Positions 33,173 to 63,594 of a stretch of 64,000 nucleotides of DNA are shown in pieces. The notes under the pieces are model-generated. The model searched no databases and had not been told where the DNA came from. It saw only the letters and a program-made list of their open reading frames with translations. The stretch is taken from contig NC_037590.1 in assembly GCF_003073045.1 (NCBI RefSeq), positions 36,262,751-36,326,750 of the forward strand. Direction: 5' to 3'. The position numbers were made by a program, and so were the translations under genes. The number at the start of each line of letters is the position of its first letter. The first letter of the stretch is position 1. The DNA comes from Pomacea canaliculata. Taxonomy: Eukaryota; Mollusca; Gastropoda; Architaenioglossa; Ampullariidae.

Positions 33173-36147
33173 CTAAAAGCTATTTCTGTCTCTAATGGCA
33201 TCATTCAGTGCGAGCCCTAAACGATTCCAAAAGGAGTTACAAGCGTCGTCACCGTTGGCCCACTCAATGTAGGTCGTCGTCTGGAGTACAGCAAACATGG
33301 CGCTGGTCATATCACGTGACTCCATCTCGTGCAGCAACACCAGCACCAACACCTCGTCACGGTCCATGACCGAACACTGACAGTACTTCAGCTCGAACTG
33401 ACACCACTCGCTGCGAGCATAATCAGGAGAGAAAACCATCAGAATCTTGCGACTGTCCTGCACGCAGTCAGCGATGTTGTCCACGATGTGCTTGCCGGGA
33501 ACGAAGTCGCGCTCGTGCACGCATGCGCGAAGGTTCCACTGGCCCTCCACGACGGGCAGTAACTCCTGCATCACCCATTTCTTGTCTTCAGCAGCGTAGC
33601 CTACGAAGATGTCGTATGTGAAGTCCCGGAGTTGTCTTCCCTGACTGCTTCGATGGTGGAACCACTCGTACATGTACAGACGCAAATGCCACCGGAAGCG
33701 GAAAAAAACAGCGATGAGGGTTAGCACAAAAAAGACAATGATGATTGTGGCCATGGTGAAGGCTGCAGCATCGTGACCTATTAAACAGGCCTGAAATAAA
33801 CACACACACTCAAAGTCAGATTTATCTGCTCAATATTGCTTAAAGAAAACATGAACTAAACATTGTTTCTTACACATATATACTTAAATAAAATCCAAAC
33901 AGCATAATTATACCGACAAATTGAAAATGGGGCAGTACTTTTTTCCCCATTTTTCCCCCCTTTTTATTTGGGGGTAATGGGGCAGTTGAAACTGCCTATA
34001 AATCTAAAGGGAAGCAATTAACTTTGTTTGACGCATCATACCTCCCCGAGTTGCCCCCCTTTCGAGCGGGTACCTGACCTATAAAGCTACAAGAGAAAGG
34101 GCACTGCGCTCTTTATAAAAGGCTAGTCTCACGATAAGAGCAATCTTTAACATCTTAAACCCCAACAACCAAAATTGTTTGTCTGTGACTTTAGTACATG
34201 GGTTTTCCAGACTCCACTGTTTCATAGCAATAAGAGCAGCCGAGAGACTTTGGGTTCTCAGTTACCGATGAACTAGAAAATGTCGGATCCTCCTATGCAA
34301 ATCAGATGTTCAGAACATGATTGACTGCTAGTTTCTTTATCCCTCCAGTGTGAAATTAGTATGCATAGAAGACGAAAAAACTATTTAAAAAACAACAGAA
34401 AGCATCGCGATTTTTCAAAGACTTTGGCTCTTTGGTAATAATACTTCTTGACATATCTCTTCATTGATGTAGAATACCTCATGACTTACCTGTTCATTGA
34501 TGTAGAAAGTATACAAGCTAGTGTTGACCATATTCGAGCACTGATAACCAGCATGATTGTAATCCCCAAACTGCTTCGGGTTCGAGATAAACCACTGCTG
34601 GAACCAGGCAAGCTCGCAGGAGCAAATGTATGGGTTGTCACTGAGGTCGATGGTTTTTAATCTGTCGAGAACATTAAATTTGTAAAATAATTGTTCTGTT
34701 TGTACTAAGATATATAGAAATCTGTTTAACAATGTTTTGTAATCATAGCAATAGTCTTTCCTTTTAAAAAAAAATAGAAAATATTTTTACTTACCGACTT
34801 CGCGTTTTGTTTCCGAAAGCGTTTTGCGAGACCACAGACAATCTGTTTTTATTCATGCTGAGAACTTGGAGATACTTTATCTGATCAAATGTTCCATCTC
34901 GAATAAAAGTAAAGTCGTTTCCGTACAAGTACAGCTTAGTCAAGTGTTTCAGTCTGGCGAAGGTATTCGGGGTGATCGACTTAATCTGGTTGTATCCAAG
35001 AAAAAGTGTTTTCATAGACTTTTCCAACGGTTCAAACAGCGCGTGATATCTAGCATCGCCGGCCAGGCCAAAGTTGTTGTAGTCCCAGTACAAGAGACGA
35101 ACTTGGCTGCACCCTCCGAATGCCTTCTCGTGCACGGACGGTGATGACATGTCTACCCCATTCCGACTAAACCAGATGTGTGTCACAACAGAATTGTTGA
35201 AGGCGAACTCCCTAATCTCCTTCACCTTTATTTCCATCTGTGTGAGTTGCAGGTCATCCAGGGAAGGGAACCGTTGCGTACTAAACATGTTGGTCTCAAA
35301 AATCGAGATGCGATTGAACTGAATGGATAGATGTTTCAGTTTCGGAAGACAAATCGGGCCGCTAATAACTTCGATCATATTAAAGTCCAAGCCGAGTGAA
35401 TCCAGACTAGGAAAGAGCGATTGGTTGCCTGATTCACTGCCACAGGTCTTGGGAAAATCGAACAGTCGATTTTGTCTGAAGTCCAAGTGTTTTAAATACG
35501 GAAGACTGGCGGTGGTGAGGTTGTAGAGTTTGCTGGACCAGAGGGTGAAGTTTTTCAGATGACGGAGCGGCTGGATCTCGTGGAGGTCCAGAGCGTTAAT
35601 ATCGCTGAAACCAAATTTAAGATATCTAAGGCCTTTCATACTGACGTTTCTGAAAACACCTTCCGGTACAGGCCCGAGGTTATCGCAAAGCATTTCCAGA
35701 TTCTCCAAGGTTGGGACACCGAAAACTGGTGCCAGGTCTTTGTAACCAAAATTGTTTCCTCCTATCAACAACGTTCGCAAAGATTTCAAACCTTCAAAAG
35801 CTTGAGGATGTATGTACTCCAGTCCGTTGTTGTACAAGTCTATTAACCAGGCATTCTGAAACGTTTTTGAAGAAACCACCACGAGAAATACTCGTCAGCC
35901 TGTTGTTGGAGAAATTTAAAACTTTTACTTGGAATTCAGTAACCTTTGGGACATATGTCACATTGCCAAAGTTGGACGAGCAGTCGAGGGTGAAGTTGAA
36001 GTCGCAGCGACACAGAGGTGCGCTGGAAGAGCAGTTGTACAAGATTAAGTACGGACGCACAGCATAGCTCCAGCAAAACTCTGTCGATGAAAGTGTCATC
36101 ATCAGATGTAGCAAGAAGAAAACTGCAAAAGCACGAGAGAGAAACAT
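33173..36147 (-). CDS. TLR: Toll-like receptor, copy 1 (divergent ectodomain), three exons
   Basis: Innate immune receptor: LRR ectodomain for ligand, one membrane span, cytosolic TIR domain for adaptor binding. Exons: 34795-36147, 34490-34661, 33173-33790. The signal peptide starts MFLSRAFAVFFLLHLMM. A cysteine-rich LRRNT (CRCDFNFTLDC) and a series of LRRs follow, then LRRCT (NPYICSCELAWFQQW). Exon 3 starts ACLIGHD, with a span at about residues 517-540 and TIR from about 565: box 1 YDIFVGYA, box 2 CVHERDFVPG, box 3 FW. The ectodomain differs strongly from the other copies whereas the TIR exon is nearly the same. Exon 1 has one extra base near 35853-35858, between KNVSE and AWLIDLYNN; without it the phases fit and the protein has 713 residues. 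Only one LRRCT is present, so it is of the single-cysteine-cluster type. Confidence 0.88.
33925..34130. repeat. Possible interspersed repeat in TLR copy 1 intron
   Basis: GC-richer sequence with C and G runs, the word ATGGGGCAGT twice, and a segment on the minus strand reading AGGTACCCGCTCGAAAGG. It stands out from the intron but no second copy is in the window, so the call is weak. Confidence 0.25.
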
Positions 36148-39422: not shown

Positions 39423-42293
39423 CTAACCCTCAGAAGATAAAGTTTTGTTCAGTGCAAGAGCCATACGACTCCAAAAGGAGTCACGAGCGTCAACAGTGTT
39501 CGCCCACTCAATGTACGTCGTCGTCTTCATCACTACAAACATGGCGCTGGTCATGTCACGTGACTCCGTCTCGTGCAGTAACACCAGCACCAACACCTCG
39601 TCACGGTCCATCACACAGCACTGACAGTACTTCAGCTCGAACTGACACCACTCGCTGCGAGCATAATCAGGAGAGAAAACCATCAGAATCTTGCGACTGT
39701 CGTGCACGCAGTCAGCGATGTTGTCCACGATGTGCTTGCCGGGAACAAAATCGCGCTCGTGCACGCATGCGCGAAAGTTCCATCGACCCTCCACCACGGG
39801 CAGTAACTCCTGCATAACCCACTTCCTGTCCTCCACAGCGTAGCTCACGAAGACGTCGTAAGTGTAGTGACGGAATTGTTTTTCTTGTGGACTTCTATGA
39901 TGGAACCACTCGTACATCACCAAGCGGAGATGCCATCGAAATCGGAAGAAGATGATGAAAATGATAAACACGACGAGCACGATGATGATGACAGCAATGG
40001 TGAACGTTGCTGCTCCTTGACCCAAGAGACATGCCTACAACAGCCAGTTCACACACATACATACACATGTACACACGCATTCACATACGCATACGCATAC
40101 ACACACATAGCCCCCATACATACAACAAAATATGACATTAAAGTACGTGACTTTTAGAAACATGTTTTCATACACACTTTGTATACGACACTTACAGAGG
40201 ATCCCTACTGAATCCCTAATCACCAACTCAGTTCATAACCTCTTCCACAGAGTTAACTTTACCCCTGAACGTCCTCCCCATTGTCCTTCCTGTTCGGAGC
40301 TTAAGATATAATGTTGTTTACCTGTTCGTTCATGCGGAACGCCTGTACGCTGGTGTTTACAAGGTTGTCGCACATGTATCCCTCGCGAGCATGAAGTACC
40401 AGCTGGTCAGGTCGCGAGCTCAGCCACTCCTGGAGCCAACGAATATCGCAGGAACAGTAGAACGGGTTACCGCTGAAGTCGATTTGTTGTAACCTGAAAG
40501 CCAAACACACAAGATTGTGAGATGAATTTTAAAATAGAACAGGAAAGTGTATGTAAAACACTCGGTAAGTCTCAGGACTCTGAACTTAAGCGAACAGTTT
40601 TTATGTCAAATATAACTGCTCAAAACTGTTTATGGCAAACGGTTTTCCATGTAAAGTACGGTCGCTGAGACAGCAACACATGCAAACAGAATCACACACA
40701 CTCTCTCTCTTGTACACAGATTCGCTAAGTGATGACTGATGAGCTTTGTTTTCTAGACACTGACATTGTGCACACAGGTCATGTTCTGTTGACATAATCA
40801 CTTTGTACCGGACTTAATGGAGACGGTAGGTGTAACAGCTGCATAACACAAGTACGTGCATATACATGTGTACACAAACGCTTGAGTTTCGTCAAAATTA
40901 TTTTTTTTAAATTACTTAATTCAAACCTTTTTCGTGTGTCCTCATCAAAAGCTTCAGGGGAGACGAAGCTGATCTGATTGGAGTCAAAGCCAAGCCCTTT
41001 CAGTTGAACCAACGGTGAGAAACAGCCATCTGGTATGACCTTCAGCAGGTTGTCGTATAAATACAAGTACTCCAGACTCTTAAAAGGCGCAAAGGTGTCG
41101 GGACTGATGCTCTCAATTCCGCAGTCTCCAAGATACAAACTTTTTATCGATCTGAACGGTTCGAAAAGTCTGTGAAACCTTTCGATCGACACTGTTTTGA
41201 ACACGCAATGATCGAAATAGAATTTCAGAACGTTGGTACATCCACCAAAAGCGTCTTCATGAAGAACTTTTGGAGACGAGAGATCGAGGTAATTCAAGGC
41301 GAGTCCCAGATACAGCAGCTGTGAGTTATTAAAGGTGAACTTGTCGATTCGTAATATTTTGTCTTCCATTTGAGTCAGTTCAAGTTTTTCTAGACTTGGA
41401 AATCGTGCGATTCCAAAAGTGTTACTTTCAAAATTTTGGAATCTGTTGAACTCGAGGGTCAAAACATACAACTTTGGGAGACAGACAGGATCCGTTATCG
41501 AAGAAATCATGTTGAAATCCAGTAGAAGTTGCTCGAGGTTGGGGAAAAGGGATTCTCCAGTGTCCGGATCGCATGACTTCGGGAAGTCAAAGAGACGATT
41601 GTACTGCAGGTCTAGAAACCTCAGGTTCTCCAGTCGTGAGGTAGTGAGGTTGTACAGTTGGTTTGCCTGAGCAATGAACATGTGCAGACTGTTCAAAGGC
41701 TGCAGATGTCCCATATAAAAGGAACCAATATTGTTTAGACTAACGTTCAACACGTCCAGCTCCCTCAGAGTGCTCCTAGAAAAGATGTTTAAGTCTGCCT
41801 GACTTAAGCCACTGCACAGTATTTCCAGCCTCGACAAGGACTGAATTCGGAAAACATGGCCCAGTGCTTCACGACTTAAATGGTTACCGTTTAGAAGGAG
41901 AGTAGTCAAATGATGTAGTCCCTGAAAAGCTCTAGACGATACAGATATTAAGCCGTTGTTGGAGAGATCCAGCAACCACACTTGGGACACGTTGAAAAAA
42001 AAATCGTTAGATATATAAGACAGGTTGTTGCTGGAGAAGTTGAGGACCTGGACTTCGATAGGAAGACGAGGCACGTAGGTCAGGAGGCCATGATGCGATG
42101 AACAGTCGGCCGTAGTGTTGCTGCAAAAGCAAAAGCCCTCGCCAAAGCAAGGGTGAGTTATGGAACCTGCGTCGTGCCTCTCTGTCCAGCAGTGATTGGG
42201 ATCTTGCGCGAGACAGATGAGGGCAGACTGCAGGGCGAATATCAGTAACAGGATTCTTGGTCTCTGTGTTTTGTGCGTCCCCCTTCTGGCCAT
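39423..42293 (-). CDS. TLR: Toll-like receptor, copy 2, intact, three exons
   Basis: Exons: 40927-42293 (1367 bases), 40322-40493 (172), 39423-40034 (612), together 716 residues with no break. The signal peptide ends near ALICLAQ. LRRNT (CFCSNTTADCSSHHG) is followed by LRRs built on LxxLxLxxN, with several NxS/T glycosylation sites. Exon 2 is the LRRCT (NPFYCSCDIRWLQEW, then YMCDN). Exon 3 begins ACLLGQG, with the span at about residues 521-543 and the TIR from about 570: box 1 YDVFVSYA, box 2 CVHERDFVPG. The exon 1 donor lies after the CGA-AAA-AG codons, and all three introns and phases match the other copies. Exon 1 is nearly identical to that of copy 3 except for the last LRRs, and about 200 bases of 5' flank are shared. 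Confidence 0.93.
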
Positions 42294-42495
42294 CGCTGCA
42301 GCCCTTCAGACGAGCTGATAGTTTCCCCTGGGAATCTTCCACACTCATCTGCACAGCTCGGTGACTTTCGAATCTCAGCTCCATTCCTCGTCTGAACCTT
42401 TGTCAAATAAAGAAATTCCCCGAACGGAAAAGTCCCAGGAACTTCGACACCAGCAACGGTATTATTTAAATTGAGGACACGGTCGTGAACACAAC
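42294..42495 (-). promoter_or_regulatory. 5' flank of TLR copy 2, shared with copy 3
   Basis: This sequence aligns along its length with 48003-48205 upstream of copy 3, with only small differences. It should contain the 5' UTR and core promoter. An AATTTAAATAAT motif about 170 bases upstream of the start codon is kept in both copies and might serve as a TATA-like element. Confidence 0.45.
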
Positions 42496-42776
42496 GCTTG
42501 CTAGGTGGCGCTATTTCTGTCCTTTGCCAGCTGCTAGAGTGCGACGGCTGCAGTTCAAAGGCAACGGCTTATGAGAAGAAAAAAAACAACTAAAAATAAG
42601 TTGTCGCGGGATCGTTTGTATCGGGTTTGTATAGCCTACATCGCACCTATAGCGACCTTTCTTGCCAGTATTTATAGCAGCAACAGTATGTCATGCACAG
42701 GTAACTCTGCGCAGTGTAGCGGGTCAAGGTCAGCAAGGGGCAGGGGCCTGATGGGATATGTGGGCGTGTCTTGCAG

Positions 42777-42954: not shown

Positions 42955-43385
42955 TACATGGGTGGAGTGTTTCAACATCTCTTTCAACTCCCATTCCACA
43001 AACTTTTCAACATCGTCCCACTCCCCAAAAAACCTAATCCTAGTCAACTTAATGATTTTTGGCCAGTAGCACTAACCTCCCTCGTGATGAAATCTGGAGA
43101 AAATTGTCAGAGTTAGACACCCTGCAATTTGCTTATGGGAAGCGGAGGGGTGTTGACGATGCCCTGTTTTTCATTGTGAACACACTGTACAAACATTTGA
43201 TAAGCCCAAGACGCATGCTAGACTACTCTTCGCTGATTTTAGTTCTGCATTCAATACAGTATACAGTCCAACTAGACCTTCTGACTTTGAGACTGATTTC
43301 TGATGTTGATCTTCCACATCAACTAATTTTGTGAATAGTGGATTTTCTTACTTGCAGACAGAGGAGGGTTCGATCTCTGTTGTCC
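42955..43385 (+). mobile_element. LINE (non-LTR retrotransposon) reverse-transcriptase fragment
   Basis: Three stretches in different frames match the reverse transcriptase of jockey/CR1/L2-type LINEs: VPLPKKPNPSQLNDF followed by PVALTSLVMKS (about 43015-43095), LDTLQFAYGKRRGVDDALF with LYKHL (43113-43200), and IVDFLTCRQRRVR (43335-43375). In intact elements these are consecutive parts of the fingers and palm. Frame changes and a stop inside the third stretch show it is dead. No endonuclease, 5' end or tail is seen, so it is a short internal fragment. The clade is not resolved. Confidence 0.75.
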
Positions 43386-43729
43386 TTCACCTAATAGAAA
43401 TGAAAGGTGCATATCAGCGCTGCTGTTATTCCTTCTGTTTGCCACCGATGATGTCGTCGACGACGGCGATGATGAGAAGTTATGTGCGATGTGACAACAA
43501 CGTGAAGACACGCTTTTAACTTTGTTGCTTCACCAAGGTTACGCTGTCCTAACCTAAAAATAGCAACTGTGGTGGATTTTACTGTCAAGGGAGGGAATAG
43601 CTATCTGAACACTAGTTTTGTGCTGGACAAAGTTGCTTCCCCTCGCCGCAATAAAATTCTTTTTTATGACACACCTGGCTTTCAAAATCATTTGGCAAAG
43701 AAATACAGTTTAATCTATAGTTTTATTCC

Positions 43730-44100
43730 ACACGTTTCAGTGGCAAAAGATTATGGACTGATCAAATCCCTTTTTATGGCAATAACAATGTTTTTATTTT
43801 ATGTTATTGTTCTTTCAGTCAAGTAATGCAATCAACGTTAGTCTTACCTGCACAAGATTTTCGGTTTGCAGCTTAATTAGCACAATCTTGTAGCCTTAAA
43901 CAACATTATACCCAGCACAAAAATCACGTTTTCATACAATTTTCTCTTCAGTTTATTTTTCTCATATTCTTCAAATCAATATTTTTGTAATGTAATTAAA
44001 AGTAAGATCAAACGTGTTGTAAATTTTTAAAAGATAAAAGCTTTGCATTGCAATAGTTGTTGTGCAATTTTTTGTTGTTTTGTGTTAATAATAAGAACAG
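43730..44100 (-). pseudogene. Orphan TLR 3'-flank, no TIR exon attached
   Basis: 43815-43900 aligns clearly with 58361-58450, the 3' flank of copy 6, around TTGCAGCTTAATTAG. The word AATAATAAGAACAG near 44085 corresponds to 58824-58838, directly at the copy 6 stop. The match ends exactly where the TIR exon would begin. It is best read as the remains of a lost or rearranged TLR copy. Confidence 0.55.
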
Positions 44101-44354
44101 CTTTAAAGACCTACCTGATTGGTAAGAAATATCCCGCTCAAAAGACTCATTTCAAGTCACTTATTAATGAAATCGTAAGGAGAAACACGAACCTCGAGAA
44201 ATTAAATAAAAACGATTTCCTCGCCTATTCAAATCTCCATTTAGGCCTCGAAGCCGTGTGTGACGTCAGTACAGGTAAAAATCATAGTGACCACAGAATG
44301 GCTGATACAAGTTATCCACAAAATACCGAATCTCGAAAGCCCAAGCACAGACAT

Positions 44355-44540
44355 AGATATTATTGTGTCGTTGTCGAACGCACAATCAAACATATTGACG
44401 GAATAAGTGTACAAACGTTTCAAAAGGAGTCATCGTTCAGAAGACAATGGACCAACTTTATTCGTGTGTGTAGAACTGACTTCAGTCCACTCGCACAGTA
44501 TACGAATGTCACTTTGCTCCTGATGTTACCCAGTAAGGTG
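44355..44540 (+). pseudogene. Decayed THAP-like zinc-finger segment
   Basis: Inside an open frame at 44043-44669, residues 105-160 resemble a THAP DNA-binding domain: YYCVVVER, then GISVQTFQKESSFRRQWTNF, then RTDFSP. The second zinc Cys of the CxxC pair is lost, and an ECHF match to the Cys/His end of the domain is in another frame. THAP domains occur in P-element-type transposases and host transcription factors; which source this is cannot be told. The rest of the frame resembles nothing I know, and it starts inside a TLR 3'-flank relic, so an active gene is unlikely. Confidence 0.4.
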
Positions 44541-45059
44541 TACACTGAAGAAGAACGAGCGTTTATAAGTACCGCAAAAGCTTCTTTTTACAGGGTCCGT
44601 CCCTTTTATATACAAAAGCACGGTTTGTTGTTGTTTTTTGTGTCCAGCAACAAAGAGCAGCTGTACTAACACCTCTATCATATATACTTCAAATTCAACG
44701 TTTTAAGTGACAGTATTATAGATGTAACTGGTGGTACAGTATGTTGGTAGTAACGTGCACATGATAAATGATAAGGAATGTCTTCACTAGCGTTCCCGAA
44801 AATGTATCTTCACCTTTCCATATATTTATTTGTGCGAGTGTCCCTCCTTTTGTCCCTCCTTTTAACAACCGTATGAGCAGCTATGCTCATATAAACGGGC
44901 AAATCAGTCATAGTGGTCAATTTTCCCACTAAAGACTTTTGTAAGCAAAAGAATAAACCTCCATGGATAAACATAAATTGGGATAATTTATTGACCTTTT
45001 TCAGAGAAATGAGTCCGCCTTTGGCTAAGATTTTGTGCTTTATAAATTCTCACTTTATT

Positions 45060-45060
<1 letters not shown>

Positions 45061-45098
<38 letters not shown>
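45061..45098. repeat. TCA trinucleotide microsatellite
   Basis: About twelve TCA units ending 20 bases before the stop codon of TLR copy 3, so within its 3' UTR. Confidence 0.9.
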
Positions 45099-45117
45099 TG
45101 TTTATAACTCGGACCAA

Positions 45118-48002
45118 TCAGATAGAACTGATAGATCTCTGAGAGCTGATGACGCAGTTCAATGCCCGAGACAGTCGACCCCAAAAGGAGTCACGAGCGT
45201 CAACGGTGTCCGCCCACTCAATGTACGTCGTCGTCTTCATCACTGCAAACATGGCACTGGTCATGTCACGTGACTCCGTCTCGTGCAGTAACACCAGCAC
45301 CAACACCTCGTCACGGTCCATCACACAGCACTGACAGTACTTCAGCTCGAACTGACACCATTCGCTGCGAGCATAGTCAGGAGAGAAAACCATCAGAATC
45401 TTGCGACTGTCGTGCACGCAGTCAGCGATGTTGTCCACGATGTGCTTGCCGGGAATGAAGTCGCGCTCGTGCACGCATGCGCGAAGGCTCCATTGACCCT
45501 CCAGGACGGGCAGTAACTCCTGCATCACCCACTTCCTGTCCTCCTCAGCGTAGCCTACGAAGACGTCGTTAGTGAAGTGACGGAGTTGTCCCTCCTGTGG
45601 ACCTCTATGATGAAACCACTCGTACATCACCAAGCGGAGATGCCATCGGAAACGGAAGAAGACTATGGAGATGATGAACACGACGAGCACGATGATGATG
45701 ACAGCAACGGTGAAAGTTGCTGCTGCTTGACCTAAGAGACAGGCCTACAACACACATACTTCAAGCTGTAAGATTTCAATTTTCTTCTGACAATTTCTGT
45801 CTCCTGGTGTATTCTAAGTAATGAAGTATGTAATAGTTATTCCTTTTTCTTAGTCTGTCTAAAAGAGGCATGGCTACTTTACATTCTTCACTGTGTTCAA
45901 AAGGCAAATTATTTCTTAAATCTGATGTCTCTTTGGTTCATCGTTCTCACATTTGACCTGTTTGTTCTTATGTGATATTTTAGTTCTCTTATACTTCTAA
46001 CTTTCCTATTTAGAGTATATCCTTTTAAATTTTGCGGTTTTACCTGATCGTTTATCTGGAAAACCCGTACAGGAGTATTTAGGATGTTGTCACACATATA
46101 TCCATCTTGCTTATAGTTGCAAAACTGGTTAGGATGCGAACTCATCCACTCTTGAAACCAACGGATATCACAGGAACAATAGAACGGGTTTCCACCGAGG
46201 TATATTTTCTGTAGCCTGCAAGTCAGACAACAATAGGATCACAGTTTAAGGCAAATACCGAATCTGCCGCCTTTGTGTTGTAAAAGGAAGAGATTGTATT
46301 GCCTAATTTCTCTTCTAAAATCTGAAACAAGGAACTTCCTAGAGACGAGCTCACACTTGTAAGATTGCATAAAGGTTATTTGAAAATACGTTGAAAATAA
46401 AATTTGAAATGCTCATTCGAAAAATTTTTAAAACAATTTTTATCACTAATGTCTCAATGATAAGTCCAGAACTCTGATAGTTCTCTCTTCTTTTGTTGCT
46501 CCAGTGAAAGACAACTTGACGACTCATACTTTCAATTTTACACAATACGTTACGCACACAAACCGATACACACACACTTTTCTCTTGTCCGCTCAGCTCT
46601 ATCTTAATTAAGTCAAATAGCAAAAAGATTCAAACCTGCCAAGAGTCTCCTGTGTAAAAGTGTCCTTTGAGATAACACTGATGAGATTGTTGTTGAGAAC
46701 CAGAACTTTCAGCTTTGTCAAGGCCGAAAAACATCCATCTGGTAAGAATCTGATCAGGTTGCCGTATAAATACAAGAACTCCAGACTCTTAAAAGGCGCA
46801 AAGGTGTCGGGACTGATGCTCTCAATTCCGCAGTCTCCAAGATACAAACTTTTTATCGATCTGAACGGTTCGAAAAGTCTGTGGAACCTTTCGATCGACA
46901 CTGTTTTGAATACGCAATGATCGAAATAGAATATTGTGATGCCGGTACTTCCACCAAAAGCGTCTTCATGAAGAACTCTTGGAGACGAGAGATCGATGTA
47001 ATTCAAGGCGAGTCCCAGATACAGCAGCTGTGAATTATTAAAGGTGAACTTGTCGATTCGTAATATTTTGTCTTCCATTTGAGTCAGTTCAAGTTTTTCT
47101 AAACTTGGAAATCGTAAGATTCCAAATGTGTTACTTTCAAACATTTGGAATCTGTTAAACTCGAGGGTCAAAACATACAACTTAGGGAAACAAACAGGAT
47201 CCGTGATCGAAGAAATCATGTTGAAATCCAGCAGAAGTTGCTCGAGGTTGGGGAAAAGGGATTCTCCAGTGTCCGGATCGCATGACTTCGGGAAGTCAAA
47301 GAGACGATTGTACTGCAGGTCTAGAAACCTCAGGTTCTCCAGTCGTGAGGTAGTGAGGTTGTACAGTTGGTTTGCCTGAGCAATGAACATGTGCAGACTG
47401 TTCAAAGGCTGCAGATTTCCCATATAAAAGGAACCAATATTGTTTAGACTAACGTTCAACACGTCCAGCTCCCTCAGAGTGCTCCTAGAAAAGATGTTTA
47501 AGTCTGCCTGACTTAAGCCACTGCACAGTATTTCCAGCCTCGACAAGGACTGAATTCGGAAAACATGGCCCAGTGCTTGACGATTTAAATGGTTACCGTT
47601 TAGAAAGAGAGTAGTCAAATGATGTAGTCCCCGAAAAGCTCTAGACGATACAGAAATTAAGCCGTTGTTGGAGAGATCCAGCAACCTTACTTGCGACACG
47701 TTGAAAAAAAAATCGTTAGGTATAAAAGACAGGTTGTTGTTGGAGAAGTTGAGGACCTGGACTTCGATAGGAAGACGAGGCACGTAGGTCAGGAGGCCAT
47801 GATGCGATGAACAGTCGGCAGTGGTGTTGCTGCAAAAGCAAAAGCCCTCGCCAAAGCAGGAGTAAGTTATGGAACCTGCGTCGTGCTTCTCTGTCCAGCA
47901 GTGATTGCGATCTTGCGCGAGACAGATGAGGGCAGACTGCAGGGTGAATATCAGTAACAGGATTCTTGGTCTCTGTGTTTTGTGCGTCACCCTCCTGGCC
48001 AT
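45118..48002 (-). CDS. TLR: Toll-like receptor, copy 3, intact, apparent recombinant
   Basis: Exons: 46636-48002 (1367 bases), 46044-46215 (172), 45118-45744 (627), together 721 residues with no break. The plan is as in copy 2: signal peptide to about ALICLAQ, LRRNT, LRRs, LRRCT, membrane span, TIR (YAEEDRKWVMQEL, box 2 CVHERDFIPG). Over the first 85-90% of exon 1 it is almost the same as copy 2. From about 46760 onward (GNLIRFLPDGCFSALTKLK, then the LRRCT LQKIYLGGNPFYCSC and QINDQ) it instead follows copy 6 and the adjacent relic. The TIR exon has a longer C-terminus (RSISSI). Introns are GT-AG with the same phases as the other copies. Confidence 0.92.
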
Positions 48003-48205
48003 CGCTGCAGCCCTTCAGACGTGATGATAGTTTCCCCTGGGAATCTTCCACACTCATCTGCACAGCTCGGTGACTTTGAATCTCAGCTCCATTCCTCACC
48101 TGAACCTTTGTCAAATTAAAAAAATTCCCCAAACAGAAAAGTGCCAGGAACTTTGACACCAGCGACGGTATTATTTAAATTGAGGACACGCTCCTGAACA
48201 CAACA
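48003..48205 (-). promoter_or_regulatory. 5' flank of TLR copy 3, shared with copy 2
   Basis: Aligns with 42294-42495. The match stops at about 48205, where the sequence switches without spacer into a piece of LRRCT exon from another TLR copy, so this is a duplication breakpoint. The core promoter appears to be kept. Confidence 0.45.
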
Positions 48206-49160
48206 ATTGCGATATCACAGGAACAGTAGAACGGGTTTCCACTGAGGACTATTTTCTGTAGCCTACATGTCAATACCGAATCTGCAGCCTTTGTGTTGTG
48301 AAGGGAAGAGACTGTATTGTCCAATTTCTTTTCTTAAATCTGAAACAAGGAACTTCCTAGAGACGCACTCACATTTGAAAGATTGCATAAAAGTTATTTG
48401 AAAATAAGTTGAAAATAAAATTGCAAAATGCTCGTTTGAAAAATTTTTTAAACAATTTTTATCGCTAATGTCTCAATGATAAATCCAGGACTCTGATAGT
48501 TTTCTCTTATTTTGCTGTTCCACTGATAGACAATTTGACGACTAATACTTTCAATTTTACTTACACAATACTTTACGCACACAAACCGACACACACACTC
48601 GTCCGCTCAGCTCTCACTTCTTTACGCCAACTAGAAAATAAATACTCAAACCTATCACGAGTCTCCTGTGCAAAAGTATCCTTGGAGATGATACTGATAA
48701 GATTGTTGTTGAGAGCCAGAAATTGCAGCTTTGTCAAGGCAGAAAAACATCCATCTGGTAAGAACTTCATCAGGTTGCCGTATAAATACAAGAATTCCAA
48801 GCTCACAAAAGGCGAAAATGTATCATGGCTAATACGAGAAATTTGGCAAAATCCTAGAAATAAACTCTGTATCTTCTTGAACGGATGGAAAAGTATTTGA
48901 AATCTCTTTTTACTTACTGTCTTATGTCTTACTGAGCAAAACGCCAGTAAAGTTTCTTAATACTCGTTTCAGTGAGAATTTCTGCCAACATTTAACGTCT
49001 GTCACGACAAAACTGTATTTTCTTAGTGATAACCTCGACGTTTGGGCACAAGTGGACATAGTAGCCACCATAGATCGCATAATACGGCTTGTGAAACATG
49101 CGACATTATACAATTTCCGCGTGCGTTTTTAAGTGGGAAAGGAAGTATATGTTAAAGGTT
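48206..49160 (-). pseudogene. TLR relic (copy 4) with most of the gene deleted
   Basis: 48206-48262 is the first part of an LRRCT exon (GNPFYCSCDI). 48263-48655 matches the LRR-LRRCT intron of copy 3. 48656-48922 encodes the last LRRs (LEFLYLYGNLMKFLPDGCF, LALNNNLIS, then a DTF(A)QETRDRFE end as in copies 3 and 6). Beyond 48925 the rest of the LRR exon is gone, and 49085-49135 resembles the 5' flank of copy 5 (GACATTATACA and CCGCGTG). No TIR exon is attached on the other side. It cannot encode a receptor. Confidence 0.75.
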
Positions 49161-50799
49161 GACATGCAATTCCCTGGGAAAAAAGTCAAAGTTGATATTT
49201 TTTCTAAAAAAAAAGAAACTTTTTTATCCAAACAAAATCATTCGTCCATTATAAGTTTTGTTGTTTGCAAGTTTATTTATTAAAATATAATAACACATAT
49301 CTTACTAAAAGAATGATTACATTAATCATTTCATCACATTAATATATGTAGTTTCTGGGAGTAAAGTTATATTGAAGTCAGTAGTGATTGACTTTAGTAA
49401 CAATTAAGTAACGGCTTAGTAGCTATAATCAAACTTTATTGCCTTTTCAAACAGATTATATACACATCAAATTTGTAGTGATTATCATTCTGATTCGTCT
49501 ATCAGCTAATTAAGTTACATTGAATATTTATATAAAATGTTTGTAAACTTAAAAAATTAAGGATAAAGATAATAAATTCTGACATGATGATGATGATGAT
49601 GATGATGAAGAGGAGGAGGAGAAGGAGGAGGTGGTAATTTTTTAGAATACATGCCAGATTTACTTATAAGATTCAAAAGAAACAAAGAAAACCAAATAAT
49701 TTTGACTGGTAGCATTCGAGAACTTTTGTCTCATTCTCAGCACTTTTTTAAGCGAGGTAGGGTGAAAATTCTTAATTCCTGACAAACTTGCACGTACTTA
49801 TAAGTGGAGAAGCACACTCATTTCATTACAATGTAGCAAATTTGTAAACATTCATTCTGGTTGCTGAACTACAATGCGTGGCACCAAAAATAGATCCAGA
49901 AGAAACGATCATAGATCTAAATGTAAGCGGTTTTTTTATTTAGTCGTTTCATCAAGACATCCAAGCACAGATGTTGAAGCAGGACATCATTGAAACAAAT
50001 TTTTACAAAATGCTATCTGGATGTACAACAATTATACAAGTGAATGCTACAAATCATGAACCACGAAGGAAGCAGCGGGATGTGGAGACCGTTACTTGTG
50101 TTTCAACGAAAACTTCGATCTTACTTGTCAAAAATGATAAACTCAGAAAGCCACAGACCATCCAACACACAGAGAAAGTAAAGGAGAACAGATCCACAAG
50201 TTGATGATGATAAAACCAGAACAATGACACTCTTTATATCAGTAGCCTTGTGCCGATAACCGATACTGGAGGAAAGGAAGGGGGAAATTAATTATTGGTT
50301 CAAAATACAATGGTACATGAAAAATGATAGCCCAAGATATCAACTTAATTAAAATTACAAGGAACAATGAAAGCTATAAAGTAAATTTTGTTATTAAGAA
50401 AAGAAGCACAAGCACTTGCAAATTATTGACTCTCTCTAACTTCTAGTGATTTGTAAATAAAAAATCCAAAACAGATGGTAGACAGAACAATCCAACAAAG
50501 CTAACCCCTGTAGTCTGTAAGGCGAGGGGACATCACTCAATAATAATAATATTATTTTTTATTATTATTCCTTATGTCATATGAATGCTTTTTTTATAAT
50601 TGTTATCTTAATTACACGCATGTGTTTCTCTATCTTTATTTAATGTTGCATGAGCAGAGTGTTGCAGTCCAGTGCATATCGGAGCTCTTCGACAACACTA
50701 TTAATCTGTCCCTTAAATCTAATCTTTAATCTAACCTAATACCTGTCTATGAACTGTAGCAAGACTGTGGTGCACTTTTGATTAAAAAAAAGACCAGGT
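49161..50799. other. Spacer between the TLR relic and copy 5
   Basis: 49300-49460 still resembles the far 5' flank of copies 5 and 6 (GATTACATTAATCATTT, CTTAGTAGCTATAATCAAAC). An ATG/GAG microsatellite lies at 49585-49631. 50640-50720 matches the 3' flank of copy 6 at 58083-58150. No other gene is recognised. Confidence 0.55.
49585..49631. repeat. ATG microsatellite passing into a GAG tract
   Basis: About eight ATG units are followed by AGG/GAG triplets. Non-coding. Confidence 0.9.
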
Positions 50800-53738
<2,939 letters not shown>

Positions 53739-55193: not shown

Positions 55194-55904
55194 TTACTGG
55201 TGAGAGAGCTTTTGATTTTTTCCTCTGCTTATCTTTGTGGTTTTTTTTTATGACTTGAAGTGGTCAGATATATGGTTGTCTACTAAGAAGAGTTGGTTAA
55301 GATGACATCCCAAAGTGGTGGTGGCGGTGGTGGTGGTTGGTGGTGCTGTTTTTTATGTTGATTTTTTCATTTTTTTTTGAAAGATATTCATGTTTATGAG
55401 TAATTTTGTTCTCGTTTATAACTGTTATAGGCGCAGTTTATTAGTATCCTGGAGCATTTAGCCCAGGAAAGTTGAGGTCGCTCGTCCCCAGAGACAGTTT
55501 CTGTCCTCGAGTGGAGGAGTCAGCGGTATTTTGTTTGTTTGACTGTTTCTATGGTTTGAGACACTTTGTGAGTGTATGTGGAAGTTATATATTTGGATTC
55601 TGGAACATTAGTCTCCAGTGACTGTTGGCACAGTGAAACAACAATATCTAATGACTGCAATTGATAGCATTATCCGATTAGTCATCAGTAAAAACAGTGT
55701 TGTACAGGACTCTAAACTTTATTATTTTTATGTTTGATCTTCAACCAGGAAAAGAAACTTTCTTTTAGGACTGTGTTTAAAATTAGATATCTTAGATAAT
55801 AGTAAGGATGGAATTATGTCTTTTATTGGTTATTTTCTGAAGACATAAAGCGCAAATGTCCAGGCGTCTACGTCCACGTGACATTCTATACAATCAGAGA
55901 TTTT
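55194..55904. other. Spacer between copy 5 flank and TLR relic 2
   Basis: About 700 AT-rich bases, with a GGT/GGTGG-rich stretch near 55316-55345. No gene or repeat copy is recognised. Confidence 0.6.
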
Positions 55905-56130
55905 ACAATAGAACGGGTTTCCACTGAGGTCTATTTCCTGTAGGCTTAAAGTCCGACAATAACAAATTTGTTTCAGTACGTTAATATGACCACAGTTTTA
56001 TACCAATACCGAATCTGCCACCTTTGTTTTGTAAAAGGAAGAGATTCTAATGGTAAGCGTCTCTTCTAAAATCTGAAACAGGGAACTTCCGAGAGGCAAA
56101 CTCTTGGTATTGCAAGATCGACAAAATAAT
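55905..56130 (-). pseudogene. TLR relic 2: LRRCT start plus adjoining intron
   Basis: 55905-55945 on the minus strand encodes the start of an LRRCT exon (LQEIDLSGNPFYC in other copies), cut off after about a dozen codons. 55946-56130 aligns with the LRR-LRRCT intron of copy 3 (AATACCGAATCTGCC, AGGAAGAGATT, TCTTCTAAAATCTGAAACA). Both ends are truncated and no LRR or TIR exon adjoins. It is a leftover of a further TLR copy. Confidence 0.7.
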
Positions 56131-56269
56131 TAAGCGATAAGCTATTCATATTCTGAAAACTGGGTTGTTTTTTATTCAAGAAAATTACAGCCTTCAGTGT
56201 TCTTTTGGTTGACTACTTGTGGTTTGAAGCATCGCTGACCCCCCCCCCCACCTCCTCCCGGCCGCTGAT

Positions 56270-56345
56270 TTGTTTTCCTCAACGTCCCAGTGAAGGGAAA
56301 AACTTCGGAAGCCTTCGGAAGTTCATGTTTTTCAGAGTGTCATCA
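56270..56345. repeat. Dispersed repeat B, copy 2
   Basis: CAGTGAAG followed by the doubled nonamer CTTCGGAAG (56303-56311 and 56313-56321), with the same one-base spacer as at 17139-17157. The similarity extends into a T-rich stretch to the left and fades to the right. Confidence 0.55.
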
Positions 56346-56689
56346 GTTTCTGAAGCTTCTGATTCAAGAATCTTTATTTTTTCACCCTTTTAAGGGTATT
56401 GAGATATTCAAAATATACATATATTCACATGCATGTCTGTATATCTTATATGCAATCTCCCTCATTCACACTCACACACGCACACAGTCATGTACTGGTC
56501 AGTTTGTAACAGTTAATACATTAAAAGGTAATTTCTTGCCTCACTCACTTGTACTTTCCTTCTTCTAGCCCTTTAATGCAAATTGGATCACTGCATATCT
56601 AATCAAATAATTCAAAGTATATAAACACATGTAAACAACTGAAAAGTTTTGGAGGCGATTTTTTTTTTGCCCCTCTCTTTCATTCTTAC

Positions 56690-57165
56690 CTAAACACAGA
56701 TATATGTATACATATATTCTTACTCATATCTGCCTATATATATAATTCTCCTTACATATTTACATATATAGCTATCTAATGCCCCCTGATGCACACAGCT
56801 ACTCATATTCACATATACATAATCCCCCTCACACACACACATCTGCTTATGTATACATGTGTGACCACCCCAGCCACACAGCCTTATATCTGCTTGTATA
56901 TATGTAACTCCCTACAAATACACTCATAGATCTTTGCTTTTATATGTATATATATACATGTAACCTCCCTTACATACATACTCATATATGTGCATATATG
57001 TACATAATCCCCCTACACACATTCTCATATCTGCTTATGTATATATAATATGTAAATCCCGCCACATACACACACACACATCCACTTACATATTATTTTC
57101 CTGATACCCCTGACACACACCTACTTATATTTGTATATATATATAATCCCCCCTTCCCCACACAA
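56690..57165. repeat. Degenerate minisatellite of CATATCTGCTTATATAT-type units
   Basis: At least eight units of roughly 45-65 bases alternate an ACTCATATCTGCTTAT-like half, a TATATA tract, and a C-run (AATCCCCC or ACCTCCC) followed by ACACAC. The units differ by many substitutions and lengths, so the array is old. It is non-coding. Confidence 0.75.
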
Positions 57166-58837
57166 ACTTTCTTGCGATGCATTAGTTTACACAGAAACAT
57201 TTGACTGAACAGCACGACAGTTGCAACTCGCACTAATTAACATTGTGCCATCTATACTACCTCTCCGTGGCAGTGCTTCTGATACCTTTGCGGAAAATAA
57301 ATCAGCTGACGGGTCACGTATGCATGTGAAATTGCGTTTAAAATATCTTCCTCATAAGCTACATATATGACAATATATGAAAATGTGAAAACAAGATCAA
57401 CAATTAAATAATAAAAAGGTTGAAAACAAAGAAGGAAGGATTTGGTTGAAGAAGTGTTGGTTTTGTGTTGTTTTTTTTTATTTTAAATCAATAAAACTAA
57501 TGTACATATTAACGCTGCACCTTGCAGAGAACTTGTTCTACTTTTATTTTTAACTTTACTGTAACTAGACCACCTTCCCATGTTTAAATTGTCCACTGGG
57601 ACAAATAAAGTTGATCATTGTCATTGTCAATAGCATTAATTAATACAATCTACGCACATAGACATTATCTATGACATTATCCACACAGAGAGAGAGAGAG
57701 TTGCCAATAAATAACTGCAAATTCTTTCTTTCTTCTGTCTGTAGAAATTTGTCTTTCACTTTCAAGAAGATTAAGATGGAAAGTATCGTCTCCAGACCAC
57801 AGCTCCACCACTAATTTCCGTTATCACAGCACATTCTATGAATTACACTTATTAGACCTACATGTAATCACACGTGCACACAGTTTAAAGGCCTAAATAC
57901 AAAACACTAATTACTATAACAAAATTGTAAAGCATATATTAAACCAAAAAATCACAAATTTAAACATACATACTTCATAAAACTCAATAGATTCATCAGT
58001 GTATGTGTTGGTAATGTGAATGTTTCTTAATCTTTATTATTTCCTTTAATTATTTACCCTGTATGCCTCGATCCTTGTTTAATAATGTATGAGCAGAATT
58101 TGGCAGTCCAGCACATATCTCATTGACAGGACTACTAATCTTTCCAAGTAAATTCCACTTGCAAAAGAATCAAAGTGATCAAACACCTGTCAAAAAAAGT
58201 ACAATGTTATACAAACTTTACTGGCATTAAAGATTTATACAATCCAGCAAAGAAAGAGCACTTGAACAATTGTTTTAAAATATATTTCGTAATTTTTCCC
58301 ACAATACCCCAGGGTGTACTTTTTATTCTTAAATACTTTCCGATTGTGTCCTCGATTTTAGTCAAGTAATAAAATCAATGTTAATCTTACCTGAACAAGA
58401 TTGTCAAGTTTGCAGCTTAATTAGGTCAGTCTTGTCGCCTTGTTGAATAAAATCAGTTTCATAAGCTGTTCTACTCGGTTTATTTTCTAAAACTTTTATT
58501 TAACTCACTACCCTTGTCCAGGAAATGTTGTAATCGTTTCTCACCCACTGCCCATCGTCCTAGAGGTCTGACATTTTCACCAGTTACTTATTTCCGGTGA
58601 CAATGCAATATTCAATATTTCCAGCATTCCACAAGTACTAAAATAATTTTAACAATTTTTTTTTATTTTGCATGAAAACATATAGACCAAAGTGGGGGAG
58701 ATATATAACTGATCCTCTAGGACTAGTAACTTGGCTAAATTGGCTTATAACACATTACAATTTTAAAGGACTAAAAAAGTTAAAATAAAATAAGTAAAAC
58801 AAATTTTTAACATTTGTTATCAATAATAAGAACAGTT
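57166..58837. other. Spacer and 3' flank of TLR copy 6
   Basis: AT-rich sequence without a recognised gene. 58083-58150 matches the 3' flank of copy 5, and 58361-58450 matches the orphan flank at 43815-43900, so the right part is the duplicated 3' end of the TLR unit. Confidence 0.55.
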
Positions 58838-61653
58838 TTAATAGCTGATCACGCAGTCCAATGCCCGAGACAGTCGACCCCAAAAGGAGTCACGAGCGTC
58901 AACAGTGTTCGCCCACTCAATGTACGTCGTCGTCTTCATCACTGCAAACATGGCGCTGGTCATGTCACGTGACTCCGTCTCGTGCAGTAACACCAGCACC
59001 AACACCTCGTCACGGTCCATCACACAGCACTGACAGTACTTCAGCTCGAACTGACACCACTCGCTGCGAGCATAATCAGGAGAGAAAACCATCAGAATCT
59101 TGCGACTGTCCTGCACGCAGTCAGCGATGTTGTCCACGATGTGCTTGCCGGGAATGAAGTCGCGCTCGTGCACGCATGCGCGAAGGTTCCACTGACCCTC
59201 CACGACGGGCAGTAACTCCTGCATCACCCACTTCCTGTCCTCCTCAGCGTAGCCTACGAAGACGTCGTAAGTGAAGTGACGGAGTTGTCCCTCCTGTAGA
59301 CCTCTATGATGAAACCACTCGTACATCACCAAGCGGAGATGCCAGCGATAGCGGAAACAGGTGACAGAGATGATGAACACGACGAGCACGATGATGATGA
59401 CAGCAATGGTAAAGGATGCTGCTGCTTGACCCAAGAGACAGGCCTACAACAGTCGTTTACATAATTCGAACTGTAATATTTCAGTCTTCTGGCGACGTTT
59501 GCTTTTATAGTTTCTAAATATTCGTAGCATTGCGTGTATAATATTTATTTATTTACTGTTTGCTAGACTTCGTCAAAAAGATATGCGATTATTGTACATA
59601 TTTCATCAAAGGCCAAATTAGTTCATAAATCTGATGTCTCTTGTATTTTAAAAGTACATTGAATGTTTGTTCTTATGTGATATTTTAACCTACTTCTTTA
59701 AAGCATTTCTTTTTAAATTTTGCGGCTGTTACCTGATCATTAATTTGGAAAATCGTAACATTAGTATTTAGGATGTTGTCACACATGTATCCTTCTTGCG
59801 CATAGTTGACAAGCGGGTTTTGTCTCGAACTCAGCCACTCTTGAAACCAACGGATATCACAGGAACAATAGAACGGGTTTCCACTGAGATATATTTTCTG
59901 TAGCCTGCAAGCCAGACAACGAATAAAAAGCTTTGTTTTAGTCTGTAAATTTATTAACAATTTATTAATATATGGCCAGTACCGAATCTTCAACTTTTTA
60001 TTCTCAAATGAAAGAGATTGTATTGTCTAATTTCTCATCTAAAATCTGAAACAAGGAACTTTCTAGAGAAGGACTCAAAAATAAATTTGTAAAGTACTGG
60101 TTTAAAAGTACTTTTAATTTTTTTTTTTTCATCGCTGCTGTCTCAATGATAAATCGAAAACTGACAGACTCATCATATTTTGCTGCTCCAGTGCCGCACA
60201 AATTTCCAACTATCCCTTTTAATTTAGTTGATTCACACATTACAATACACACCCACAAAATGTTCCCCCCTCCCAGAAAAAAAAAATAAACACACACAAG
60301 GAGGCAAAAATACTCAAACCTCTCACGTGTCTCCTCGTCAAAGGTATTCTTTGAGATGACACTGATGCGATTGTTGTTGAGAGCCAGAAATTTCAGTTTT
60401 GTCAAGGCAGAAAAACATCCATCTGGTAAGAACTTCATCAGGTTGCCGTGTAAATACAAGGATTCCAAGTTCACAAAAGGTGAAAATGTATCATGGCTAA
60501 TACTAGAAATTTGGCAATATCCTAGATACCAACTCTGTATCTTCTTGAATGGATGGAAAAGTATTTGAAATCTTTTTTTACTTACTGCCTTAAATACACA
60601 GTAATCGAAATAGAATGCTGTGATGCCGGTACATCCACCAAAAGCGTCGTCATGGAGAACTGTCTGAGAAGACAAGTTGATGTAGTTTAAGGCAAGACCC
60701 AGGAACTTCAGCTGAGAATTGTTAAAGGCGAATCTTTCGATGCCAACTATTTTATCTTCCATTTCAATCAGTGCAAGGTATTCAAGACGTGGAAAGCGTG
60801 CATTTCCAAACGTATTGCTTTCAAAAGTGAGGAATTTGTTAAATGAGAGAGAGAGGTTCGCCAAATTCGGAAGACAGACAGGATCCTTTATTGAAGAAAT
60901 CATGTTATTCTGCAGCAGCAGTAGTTTTAGGTTGGGGAAAAATGATTCGCCTGTAACCAGATCACATGTTTGCGGAAAGTCAAAAAGACGGTTCTTCTGT
61001 AAGTTTAAAAAAAAAAGGTTCTTCAGACGTGAGGTAGTCAGGTTATACAACTTGTTTTGCTGAGCGATGAAGTAACTGAGTCCCTTCAGTGGCTCCAAGC
61101 TCTTCATGTAAAGCGACCCGATATTGTTTAGACTGACATTTAGTAAAGTGAGCGCGCCAAGAGAATTATTAGAAAAAGTCTCCAAGTCCATTGGACTTAG
61201 GTTGCTGCACAATATCTGCAGATTCGTCAACGAACGAATATGAAAAACAGGAGTCAGTGCTTTATAAACTAAGGAGTTACCGTTCAGCAACAAAGTGGTC
61301 AGGTTTTGCAGTTCTTGAAAAGCCCTCGGAGATAGAGATGTTAAGCCGTTTTGACAGAGATCCAGCAGCCACACTTGCGACACGTTGGAGAAAAATTCGT
61401 CAGGAATGTGAGACAGGTTGTTGCTGGAGAAGTTGAAGACCTGGACGTCGATAGGAAGACGAGGCACGTAGGTCAGAGAGCCGTTATTCGAGGAACAGTC
61501 GGCTGTAATGTTGTTGCAGCGGCAACGGCCCTCGTCAAAGCATGGGGACATGAACTCTCCATCATACGTGTCTACCCAACAATAGTCTTCTAGAGAGGCG
61601 CAAAGGCAAATAAACAGCATGACAACAGTAATCACAGTCCTCCATTTCTGCAT
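58838..61653 (-). CDS. TLR: Toll-like receptor, copy 6, intact, three exons
   Basis: Exons: 60320-61653 (1334 bases), 59733-59904 (172), 58838-59443 (606), together 703 residues with no break. The signal peptide is MQKWRTVITVVMLFICLC. LRRNT (CRCNNITADCSSNNG) leads into LRRs with many NxS/T sites; LRRCT is NPFYCSCDIRWFQEW with YMCDN; exon 3 begins ACLLGQA with the span at about residues 510-532. TIR: box 1 YDVFVGYA, box 2 CVHERDFIPG, and SFWGRL as box 3. It is the reference partner of copy 5, sharing 1.4 kb of 5' flank. The frame stays open for 105 codons past the exon 1 donor, so a transcript keeping intron 1 would encode an ectodomain without a membrane span. Confidence 0.93.
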
Positions 61654-61679
61654 TCTGTCTGTACGTTGCGTTTTGTTGC

Positions 61680-61710
<31 letters not shown>

Positions 61711-63494: not shown

Positions 63495-63594
63495 NNNNNN
63501 NNNNNNNNNNNNNNNNNNNNNNNNNNNNNNNNNNNNNNNNNNNNNNNNNNNNNNNNNNNNNNNNNNNNNNNNNNNNNNNNNNNNNNNNNNNNNN
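63495..63594. other. Assembly gap of exactly 100 Ns
   Basis: A round 100-N run is the usual placeholder for a gap of unknown size, so distances across it mean nothing. Confidence 0.98.

Follow-up and report, generated by a model that had tools for sequence, protein, structure and literature searches.

Copy 3 of a tandem array of Toll-like receptor (TLR) genes in Pomacea canaliculata is almost certainly mosaic: it combines sequence from two TLR lineages, and there is one main switch between them. In the encoded protein one lineage, which we call Y, supplies the LRRNT and most of the LRRs, and the other, X2, supplies the last LRRs and the LRRCT. We regard it as a clear case of a TLR array having fused a recognition module from one lineage with the lower part of a second, and sequences related to both parents lie alongside. 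The initial annotation of this DNA had read copy 3 as a recombinant of two TLR lineages, and that reading is borne out by the switch in diagnostic sites, by a jump in synonymous divergence and by a change of tree topology.

The TLR array and its lineages

The window, that is the whole 64-kb stretch analysed, corresponds to C1:36262751-36326750 of a 440-Mb genome in 24 contigs, in which a Pfam TIR search gave at least 75 matches; Y or X2 copies elsewhere in the genome are judged from the matches listed there. The TLR array lies on the minus strand and occupies the right half of the window. We denote the lineage of copy 2 as Y and that of copies 4 and 6 and the relic as X; X2 is the branch of X comprising the relic and c8, a gene on the next contig. 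The members of the array are as follows.

33173-36147, minus strand: copy 1, a divergent copy with a frameshift near 35850 and a homogenised TIR core
39423-42293, minus strand: copy 2, Y lineage, intact, 716 aa
45118-48002, minus strand: copy 3, three exons, open frame, 721 aa
48211-48924, minus strand: relic, X2-type, consisting of the end of exon 1, intron 1 and the start of exon 2; truncated where the Y flank of copy 3 starts
50800-53738, minus strand: copy 4, X lineage, with a frameshift near 53110
55905-56095: small relic
58838-61653, minus strand: copy 6, X lineage, intact
63495-63594: gap of 100 N, beyond which the noisy copy 7 starts

The three-exon frames are open in copies 2, 3 and 6, and copies 1 and 4 contain one frameshift each, at the positions given above, reflecting either pseudogenes or assembly errors. 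The relic, taken together with 48939-49854, resembles an X2 gene that lacks the 5' part of exon 1, and the DNA upstream of it matches the upstream flank of c8 piecewise.

The switch between lineages

Copy 3 is divided as follows.

48003-48210, minus strand: Y-type 5' flank common to copies 3 and 2 (42294-42501 in copy 2)
46763-48002, minus strand: Y part of exon 1 (N terminus, LRRNT, most LRRs; residues 1-413), 96.0% identical to copy 2 with dS 0.07 and about 70% identical to copies 4 and 6
46935-46943, minus strand: small X-like tract inside the Y half, with 7 consecutive diagnostic sites
46762-46778, minus strand: main switch from Y to X2, within a short tract similar in both lineages
46636-46762, minus strand: X2 end of exon 1 (last LRRs), 60.6% identical to copy 2, with 3/119 differences to c8 (46754-46636)
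46044-46215, minus strand: exon 2 (predicted LRRCT), X2 lineage, with 10/172 differences to c8 and 25/172 to copy 6
45118-45744, minus strand: exon 3 (putative transmembrane segment, TIR domain, stop), no lineage assignable, the TIR core being homogenised among copies
43045-45117, minus strand: 3' flank, homologous to the 3' flank of the X2 gene c8 on the next contig (75% over 2215 columns)

A BLAST search of 45118-48205 against the window aligned 46726-48204 to copy 2 (41017-42495) at 95.2% identity, copies 4 and 6 matching the same part at 74.5-74.7%; 46254-46802 matched the relic (48272-48818) at 85.8%, and the TIR part matched copies 1, 2, 4 and 6 at 85.6-92.3%. The near-identity to copy 2 that had been noted from 48205 to about 46760, flank included, is thus correct, and the flank in fact reaches 48210, 208 bp before the ATG, where it adjoins relic exon 2 at 48211. 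When identity is scored in successive stretches of 100 bases, copies 2 and 3 agree at 92-100% of positions between 48204 and about 46754, except for one stretch at 88%, and at only 40-72% from there down to the TIR exon. Immediately ahead of the switch copies 4 and 6 are about 70% identical to copy 3, and immediately past it 92 and 89%, respectively; they are 80-87% identical to it in exon 2 and mostly 53-76% (minimum 47%) in intron windows.

Copy 2 is distinguished from copies 4 and 6 at 689 diagnostic sites, and at these the ratio of Y to X states in copy 3 changes from 350:21 on the 5' side to 61:257 on the 3' side. The best split falls between 46766 and 46762, with a maximum chi-square of 402 that none of 10000 permutations equalled (largest 20). 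When c9 (a Y sequence of the next contig) and c8 serve as outside references, the switch is located between 46784 and 46754 (728 sites, 0/10000 permutations); 107 'Y' sites that this test places in the TIR exon arise from the noisy TIR of c8. Copy 2 and the relic have 14 identical bases at the switch, which implies that the exchange fell in a short stretch of identity with diverged sequence on either side. The sharp switch lies where the initial annotation had put the join, at about 46760, although it is better described as a zone, 46778-46762, than as a point.

A second, much smaller exchange is visible at 46943-46935, where seven X-like sites follow one another within the Y half; 0 of 10000 permutations gave such a run. 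By eye, copies 2, 7 and c9 keep the other state here, so that copy 3 is probably the converted one. The tract went unflagged in the test referenced to c9 and c8 because c9 is misaligned there.

Synonymous divergence changes at the switch in the same manner. Between copies 2 and 3, dS rises from 0.07 in the 5' part to 1.39 across the last LRRs and LRRCT; over the same two parts it falls from 1.33 to 0.21 between copies 3 and 4, and from 1.15 to 0.30 between copies 3 and 6. These values also bear on the reverse reading, in which copy 2 is the recombinant and took its 3' part from a third lineage. Polarity cannot indeed come from copies 2 and 3 alone, but the dS of copy 2 to copies 4 and 6 stays steady (1.17-1.27 and 1.50-1.66 in the two parts), and copy 2 being about equally distant from them in both parts identifies copy 3 as the mosaic. 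In addition c9, noisy as it is, matches copy 2 from the 5' flank to the TIR exon, and we consider a recombinant copy 2 extremely improbable.

The 3' part had been described as following copy 6 and the neighbouring relic. It does belong to the X lineage and the relic is near to it: intron 1 of copy 3 is 88.0% identical to the relic, compared with 64.8 and 68.0% for copies 4 and 6. Its nearest relative, however, is c8 and not copy 6, with 3/119, 54/376 and 10/172 differences to c8 in the exon 1 end, intron 1 and exon 2, as against 20/119, 97/332 and 25/172 to copy 6. Copies 4 and 6 were therefore rejected as direct 3' parents, a c8-like gene being closer. We also rejected a single template switch that would have made the relic and the 3' part of copy 3 as fresh duplicates, given that these two differ by 12% and the Y part differs from copy 2 by only 4-5%.

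Trees of the two parts

Separate phylogenies of the two parts, the check named in the initial annotation, move the sister of copy 3 from copy 2 to c8, the 3' result being weak when c9 is left out. With the window copies alone, rooted on copy 1, copies 2 and 3 group together in the 5' part (next tree AU 0.022), and the tree joining them is weakly disfavoured in the 3' part, with AU 0.068 for the last LRRs and LRRCT and 0.042 once the TIR exon is added; the TIR core alone weakly prefers copies 2 and 3 (bootstrap 49). Because the window-copy trees were weak for the 3' part, we ran a topology test with c8 added. With c9 included, copy 3 with copy 2 beats copy 3 with c8 by 608 log-likelihood units in the 5' part (AU of the losing tree 3.8e-47), and copy 3 with c8 beats copy 3 with copy 2 by 388 units in the 3' part (7.3e-6). 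Without the noisy c9, copy 3 with copy 2 is ahead by 663 units in the 5' part (AU 0.002), and the 3' part leans to copy 3 with c8 by 5.9 units (AU of the losing tree 0.112).

In constraint trees of the 5' part the 'with Y' and 'with X' topologies tied, a stem position of copy 3 satisfying both, and only copy 3 with c8 was rejected; for the 3' part 'with Y' had AU 0.055, and for the TIR exon the three trees were indistinguishable. The breakpoint and dS evidence is stronger than that of the trees.

The predicted hybrid receptor

The exons of copy 3 (48002-46636, 46215-46044 and 45744-45118) are separated by GT/AG introns and encode 721 residues without an internal stop, in agreement with the intact frame noted initially; exon 1 is 1367 bases long in both copy 2 and copy 3. 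The LRR ectodomain of exon 1 is recognised by LRR_8 (3e-34) and the TIR domain by PF01582 (5.8e-20, 72.2 bits against a cut-off of 21.3), with TLR1, TLR6 and TLR2 as its best solved-structure matches. For exon 2, LRRCT_2 gave E 4.6e-4 and 20.6 bits, below the cut-off of 23.8; by eye, the exon contains one cysteine cluster, as a TLR of the single-cysteine-cluster type would have. Also by eye, there are hydrophobic stretches at the N terminus and where exon 3 begins, candidates for a signal peptide and a transmembrane segment, and the switch, at about residue 413, coincides with the strand start of one of the final repeats that precede the C-terminal cap. The hybrid would couple Y-type ligand recognition to X2-type membrane-proximal parts. 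That recombination made a new receptor, as had been proposed, holds to the extent of an intact, predicted coding sequence.

About 19 synonymous and 31 nonsynonymous differences separate copies 2 and 3 in the 5' part. The nonsynonymous share is below neutral (binomial p 0.03 for an assumed neutral share of 0.76), a pattern that mildly favours a constrained gene. Copy 2 is preceded by a TATA-like box at 42676, 383 bases 5' of its ATG and hence outside the shared 208-base flank, and its pattern was not found between the ATG of copy 3 and 48960, so that copy 3 may need another promoter.

Homogenisation of the TIR core

The TIR exon (45744-45118) had also been said to follow copy 6. That comparison can be judged only as far as this exon, since the TIR cores are homogenised and the lineages are not distinguishable there; exon 3 of copy 3 accordingly gives no lineage signal. 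Within core limits chosen after viewing the alignment (45559-45200), copy 1 is 90-93% identical in nucleotides to the other copies, which are 95-98% identical to one another. Copies 1 and 6 differ at 63/83 fourfold sites in the ectodomain, near saturation, and at 6/44 in the TIR core (Fisher 8.8e-12), and copies 2 and 6 at 56/128 and 3/44, respectively (2.5e-6). The contrast is found in 8 of the 10 pairs among the five window copies (p <=1.4e-5) and is absent in the close pairs 2-3 (p 1) and 4-6 (p 0.26).

The same was observed in an unlinked cluster on C9, of whose nine TIR genes eight were compared using whole-TIR limits. Fourfold sites differ less often in the TIR than in the ectodomain in 24 of 28 pairs (p<0.05); for the 18 pairs that include at least one of the three most diverged genes, the figures are 49-61% in the ectodomain and 4-17% in the TIR. 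When the C9 genes are compared with one gene on C2, none of the 8 pairs shows this contrast. Pooled TIR fourfold differences amount to 55/710 within C1 (6 copies), 24/169 within C8 (4 sequences, one with a stop; TIR only) and 89/1307 within C9. The C9 cluster, at C9:4459786-4532422, holds TLR genes with single long open frames, homogenised TIRs and diverged ectodomains.

Constraint on synonymous sites might in principle produce such likeness without exchange between copies, and GC3, which is 0.74-0.77 in the TIR core and 0.49-0.56 in the 5' part of exon 1, is as high as codon constraint would have it; biased conversion would give the same. Against this, TIR fourfold differences reach 54-71% between clusters on different contigs and only 7-14% within them, and protein identity is 36-65% between clusters, compared with 93-94%. 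The TIR can thus change freely at synonymous sites and the likeness is a property of the cluster, which leaves constraint as a highly unlikely explanation; exchange among neighbours is the natural reading of these sequences. Homogenisation in two unlinked clusters and its absence between clusters suggest that TIR trees in arrays follow exchange and not gene history, and TLR family trees built from the TIR alone can mislead.

The neighbouring contig

We also examined the 50 kb to the right of the window, for which coordinates above 64000 continue the window numbering. After the gap, contig 2 (63595-109123; C1:36326345-36371873) repeats the gene order of the window, with the following members.

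Directly after the gap: copy 7, resembling copy 2, noisy
About 67250-70046: c8, an X2 gene whose TIR exon is noisy
76147-79359: c9, a full-length Y sequence with a relic before it, noisy
After c9: an equivalent of copy 4, noisy
After the copy-4 equivalent: c10, differing from copy 6 at 40/2801 bases

Two stretches of contig 2, at about 63.6-68.6 kb and 75.5-87.4 kb, are noisy: the ratio of indels to substitutions there is 0.5-1.5, the indels being mostly of single bases; the ratio is 0.9-1.3 where c9 lies and 0.02-0.29 in cleaner comparisons. The final 600 bases of contig 1 are likewise noisy and there re-meet contig 2 after 1.4 kb unique to the latter. About 22 kb of collinear sequence is present on the two contigs flanking the 100-N gap, and 55300-62430 differs from its partner on contig 2 by 1.8%. 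With overlapping, unpolished ends facing the gap, the two contigs resemble a pair of haplotypes assembled one after the other; the alternative is a genuine tandem duplication. Copies 6 and c10, and likewise 2 and 7, may then be alleles counted twice, in which case TLR gene counts of the array may be inflated.

The block from 46726 to 51162, which contains the Y half of copy 3, the relic and the DNA up to the TIR exon of copy 4, matches the c9 block in one alignment of 4871 columns, and the junction between relic and Y sequence is present in both contigs. Copies 2 and 3 differ at 61 sites, several of which fall in the small tract and are misaligned; of the 61, c9 has the state of copy 2 at 25, that of copy 3 at 28 and neither at 8. 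Such mixed states could mean that c9 is an early Y branch, or that its consensus was blended from reads of copies 2 and 3. The TIR exon of c9 (about 76.1-76.7 kb) begins copy-2-like and ends copy-4-like, and its 3' flank is copy-4-like, unlike that of copy 2; c9 perhaps changes lineage within this exon through another crossover, or else there is a misjoin in noisy sequence.

Origin of the hybrid

On the evidence above we hypothesize that copy 3 was probably formed by unequal crossover, or by a homology-based deletion, that fused a Y gene to an X2 gene. The starting state would have been a Y gene adjoining an X2 gene in the same orientation; recombination within exon 1 of the two would have fused them with loss of the roughly 9 kb between them, and small conversions, in the 46943-46935 tract and the TIR core, would have extended the mosaic. 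The switch sits at matching positions of both genes and keeps the frame, the 5' flank of copy 3 is of the Y lineage, and its introns and 3' flank are of the X2 lineage. A candidate for the parental arrangement, adjacent and in the same orientation, is seen on contig 2, partly in noisy sequence: the order there is relic, Y gene (c9), X2 gene (c8), where contig 1 has one hybrid, and a single deletion of about 9 kb would fuse the two.

The same hybrid could have come about by one-sided gene conversion, without loss of an adjoining Y gene, if the 5'-most 1.45 kb of copy 2 (flank and LRRs) had been copied into an X2 gene, with entry by homology at 46763 and an end at 48210/48211, where the join to the relic would be non-homologous. 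One join does lie at matching positions and the other lacks evident homology, and the putative donor, copy 2, is intact, 4 kb away and 95% identical. The junction of relic and Y sequence on contig 2, however, precedes a full Y gene and hence seems older than the hybrid, with the caveat that this stretch of contig 2 is noisy. We judge one-sided conversion the unlikely route of the two, if by no means a negligible one.

A false join of a Y gene to an X2 gene during assembly would also mimic a fusion, and the surroundings give some cause for concern, with a contig end at the 100-N gap 15 kb away and some 22 kb of collinear contigs side by side. The sequence in which copy 3 lies is itself clean, with few indels (indel/substitution ratio 0.03 in comparison with copy 2 and 0.06 with the relic), the 14 bases identical between copy 2 and the relic at the switch offer little for an overlap, and both halves of copy 3 differ from the other copies. 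We therefore regard an assembly artefact as very improbable.

We stress that, contig 2 being noisy, the mechanism and any allelism are less certain than the mosaic, and that the unfused order of c9 and c8 could be partly misjoined. Returning to the favoured route of crossover or deletion, the fusion may predate the divergence of the two contigs, since copy 3 differs from c8 in exon 2 and intron 1 by more than copy 6 does from c10 (3/119 in the exon 1 end, 10/331 in intron 1 and 3/172 in exon 2); part of the excess is noise in c8. A broader proposal, which we put forward tentatively and rank, as regards allelism, below the crossover or deletion itself, is that the hybrid is a segregating structural allele (one fused gene versus two unfused ones), that recurrent crossover makes new combinations of ectodomain and signalling parts while conversion keeps the TIR core common, and that TIR homogenisation operates in more than one TLR cluster. 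If the fusion were indeed allelic, individuals would differ in the number and specificity of their receptors, which could be tested against infection.

Comparison with other receptor families

Joining parts of receptors is a known route to new receptors, of which copy 3 is a well-resolved new case. In plant Cf/Hcr9 clusters, unequal intragenic recombination brings together N-terminal LRRs and a C-terminal part that come from different paralogues; these are receptor-like proteins without a TIR. In humans a deletion between the adjacent paralogous immune receptors SIGLEC14 and SIGLEC5 yields one fused gene that is present or absent by haplotype; this is a different receptor family, and for copy 3 the allelic state is only inferred.

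Also close in kind are the mammalian TLR1 and TLR6 genes, in which conversion in nine mammals homogenises the last four LRRs, the C-terminal cap, the transmembrane segment and most of the TIR (Kruithof 2007, PMC2077338). These too are tandem TLR paralogues with diverged N-terminal LRRs and a C-terminal block in common, and the boundary lies in the last LRRs, as in copy 3 at 46763. They differ in that conversion there keeps two genes alike, whereas in copy 3 two diverged lineages have been joined into one hybrid; the Pomacea hybrid moreover has lineage-specific introns and flanks, and the control used here is unlinked clusters, not orthologues. In avian TLR1A/B and TLR2A/B the C-terminal part is likewise homogenised between paralogues by conversion, with codon identity used as the test against convergence (Huang 2011, PMC3125219); those are vertebrate pairs, compared with a larger array with relics here.

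For molluscs, the terms 'gene conversion' and 'recombin' are absent from the main text of a TLR review (PMC12521104), and in a Biomphalaria genome paper, which counts 70 TLR-like genes, 'gene conversion' occurs once. Among the titles and abstract openings listed, mostly outside the subscription literature, we found no hybrid TLRs or TIR conversion in invertebrate arrays, which is weak evidence.

Other observations

Pfam was searched with 10 ORFs, of which 9 come from the 23 in 1-33000 that are 110 aa or longer and one lies at 44031-44669. Only two matched, both outside the TLR array: a Wnt-like exon at 8439-8834 (6.3e-8) and a Peptidase M1 (Peptidase_M1) fragment at 20876-21487 (3.5e-13). Elsewhere in the genome, at C14:3210794-3249244, some open frames seem to carry two TIR matches each; the matches at 3237491 and 3238085, for example, are both assigned to one frame of 1271 aa.
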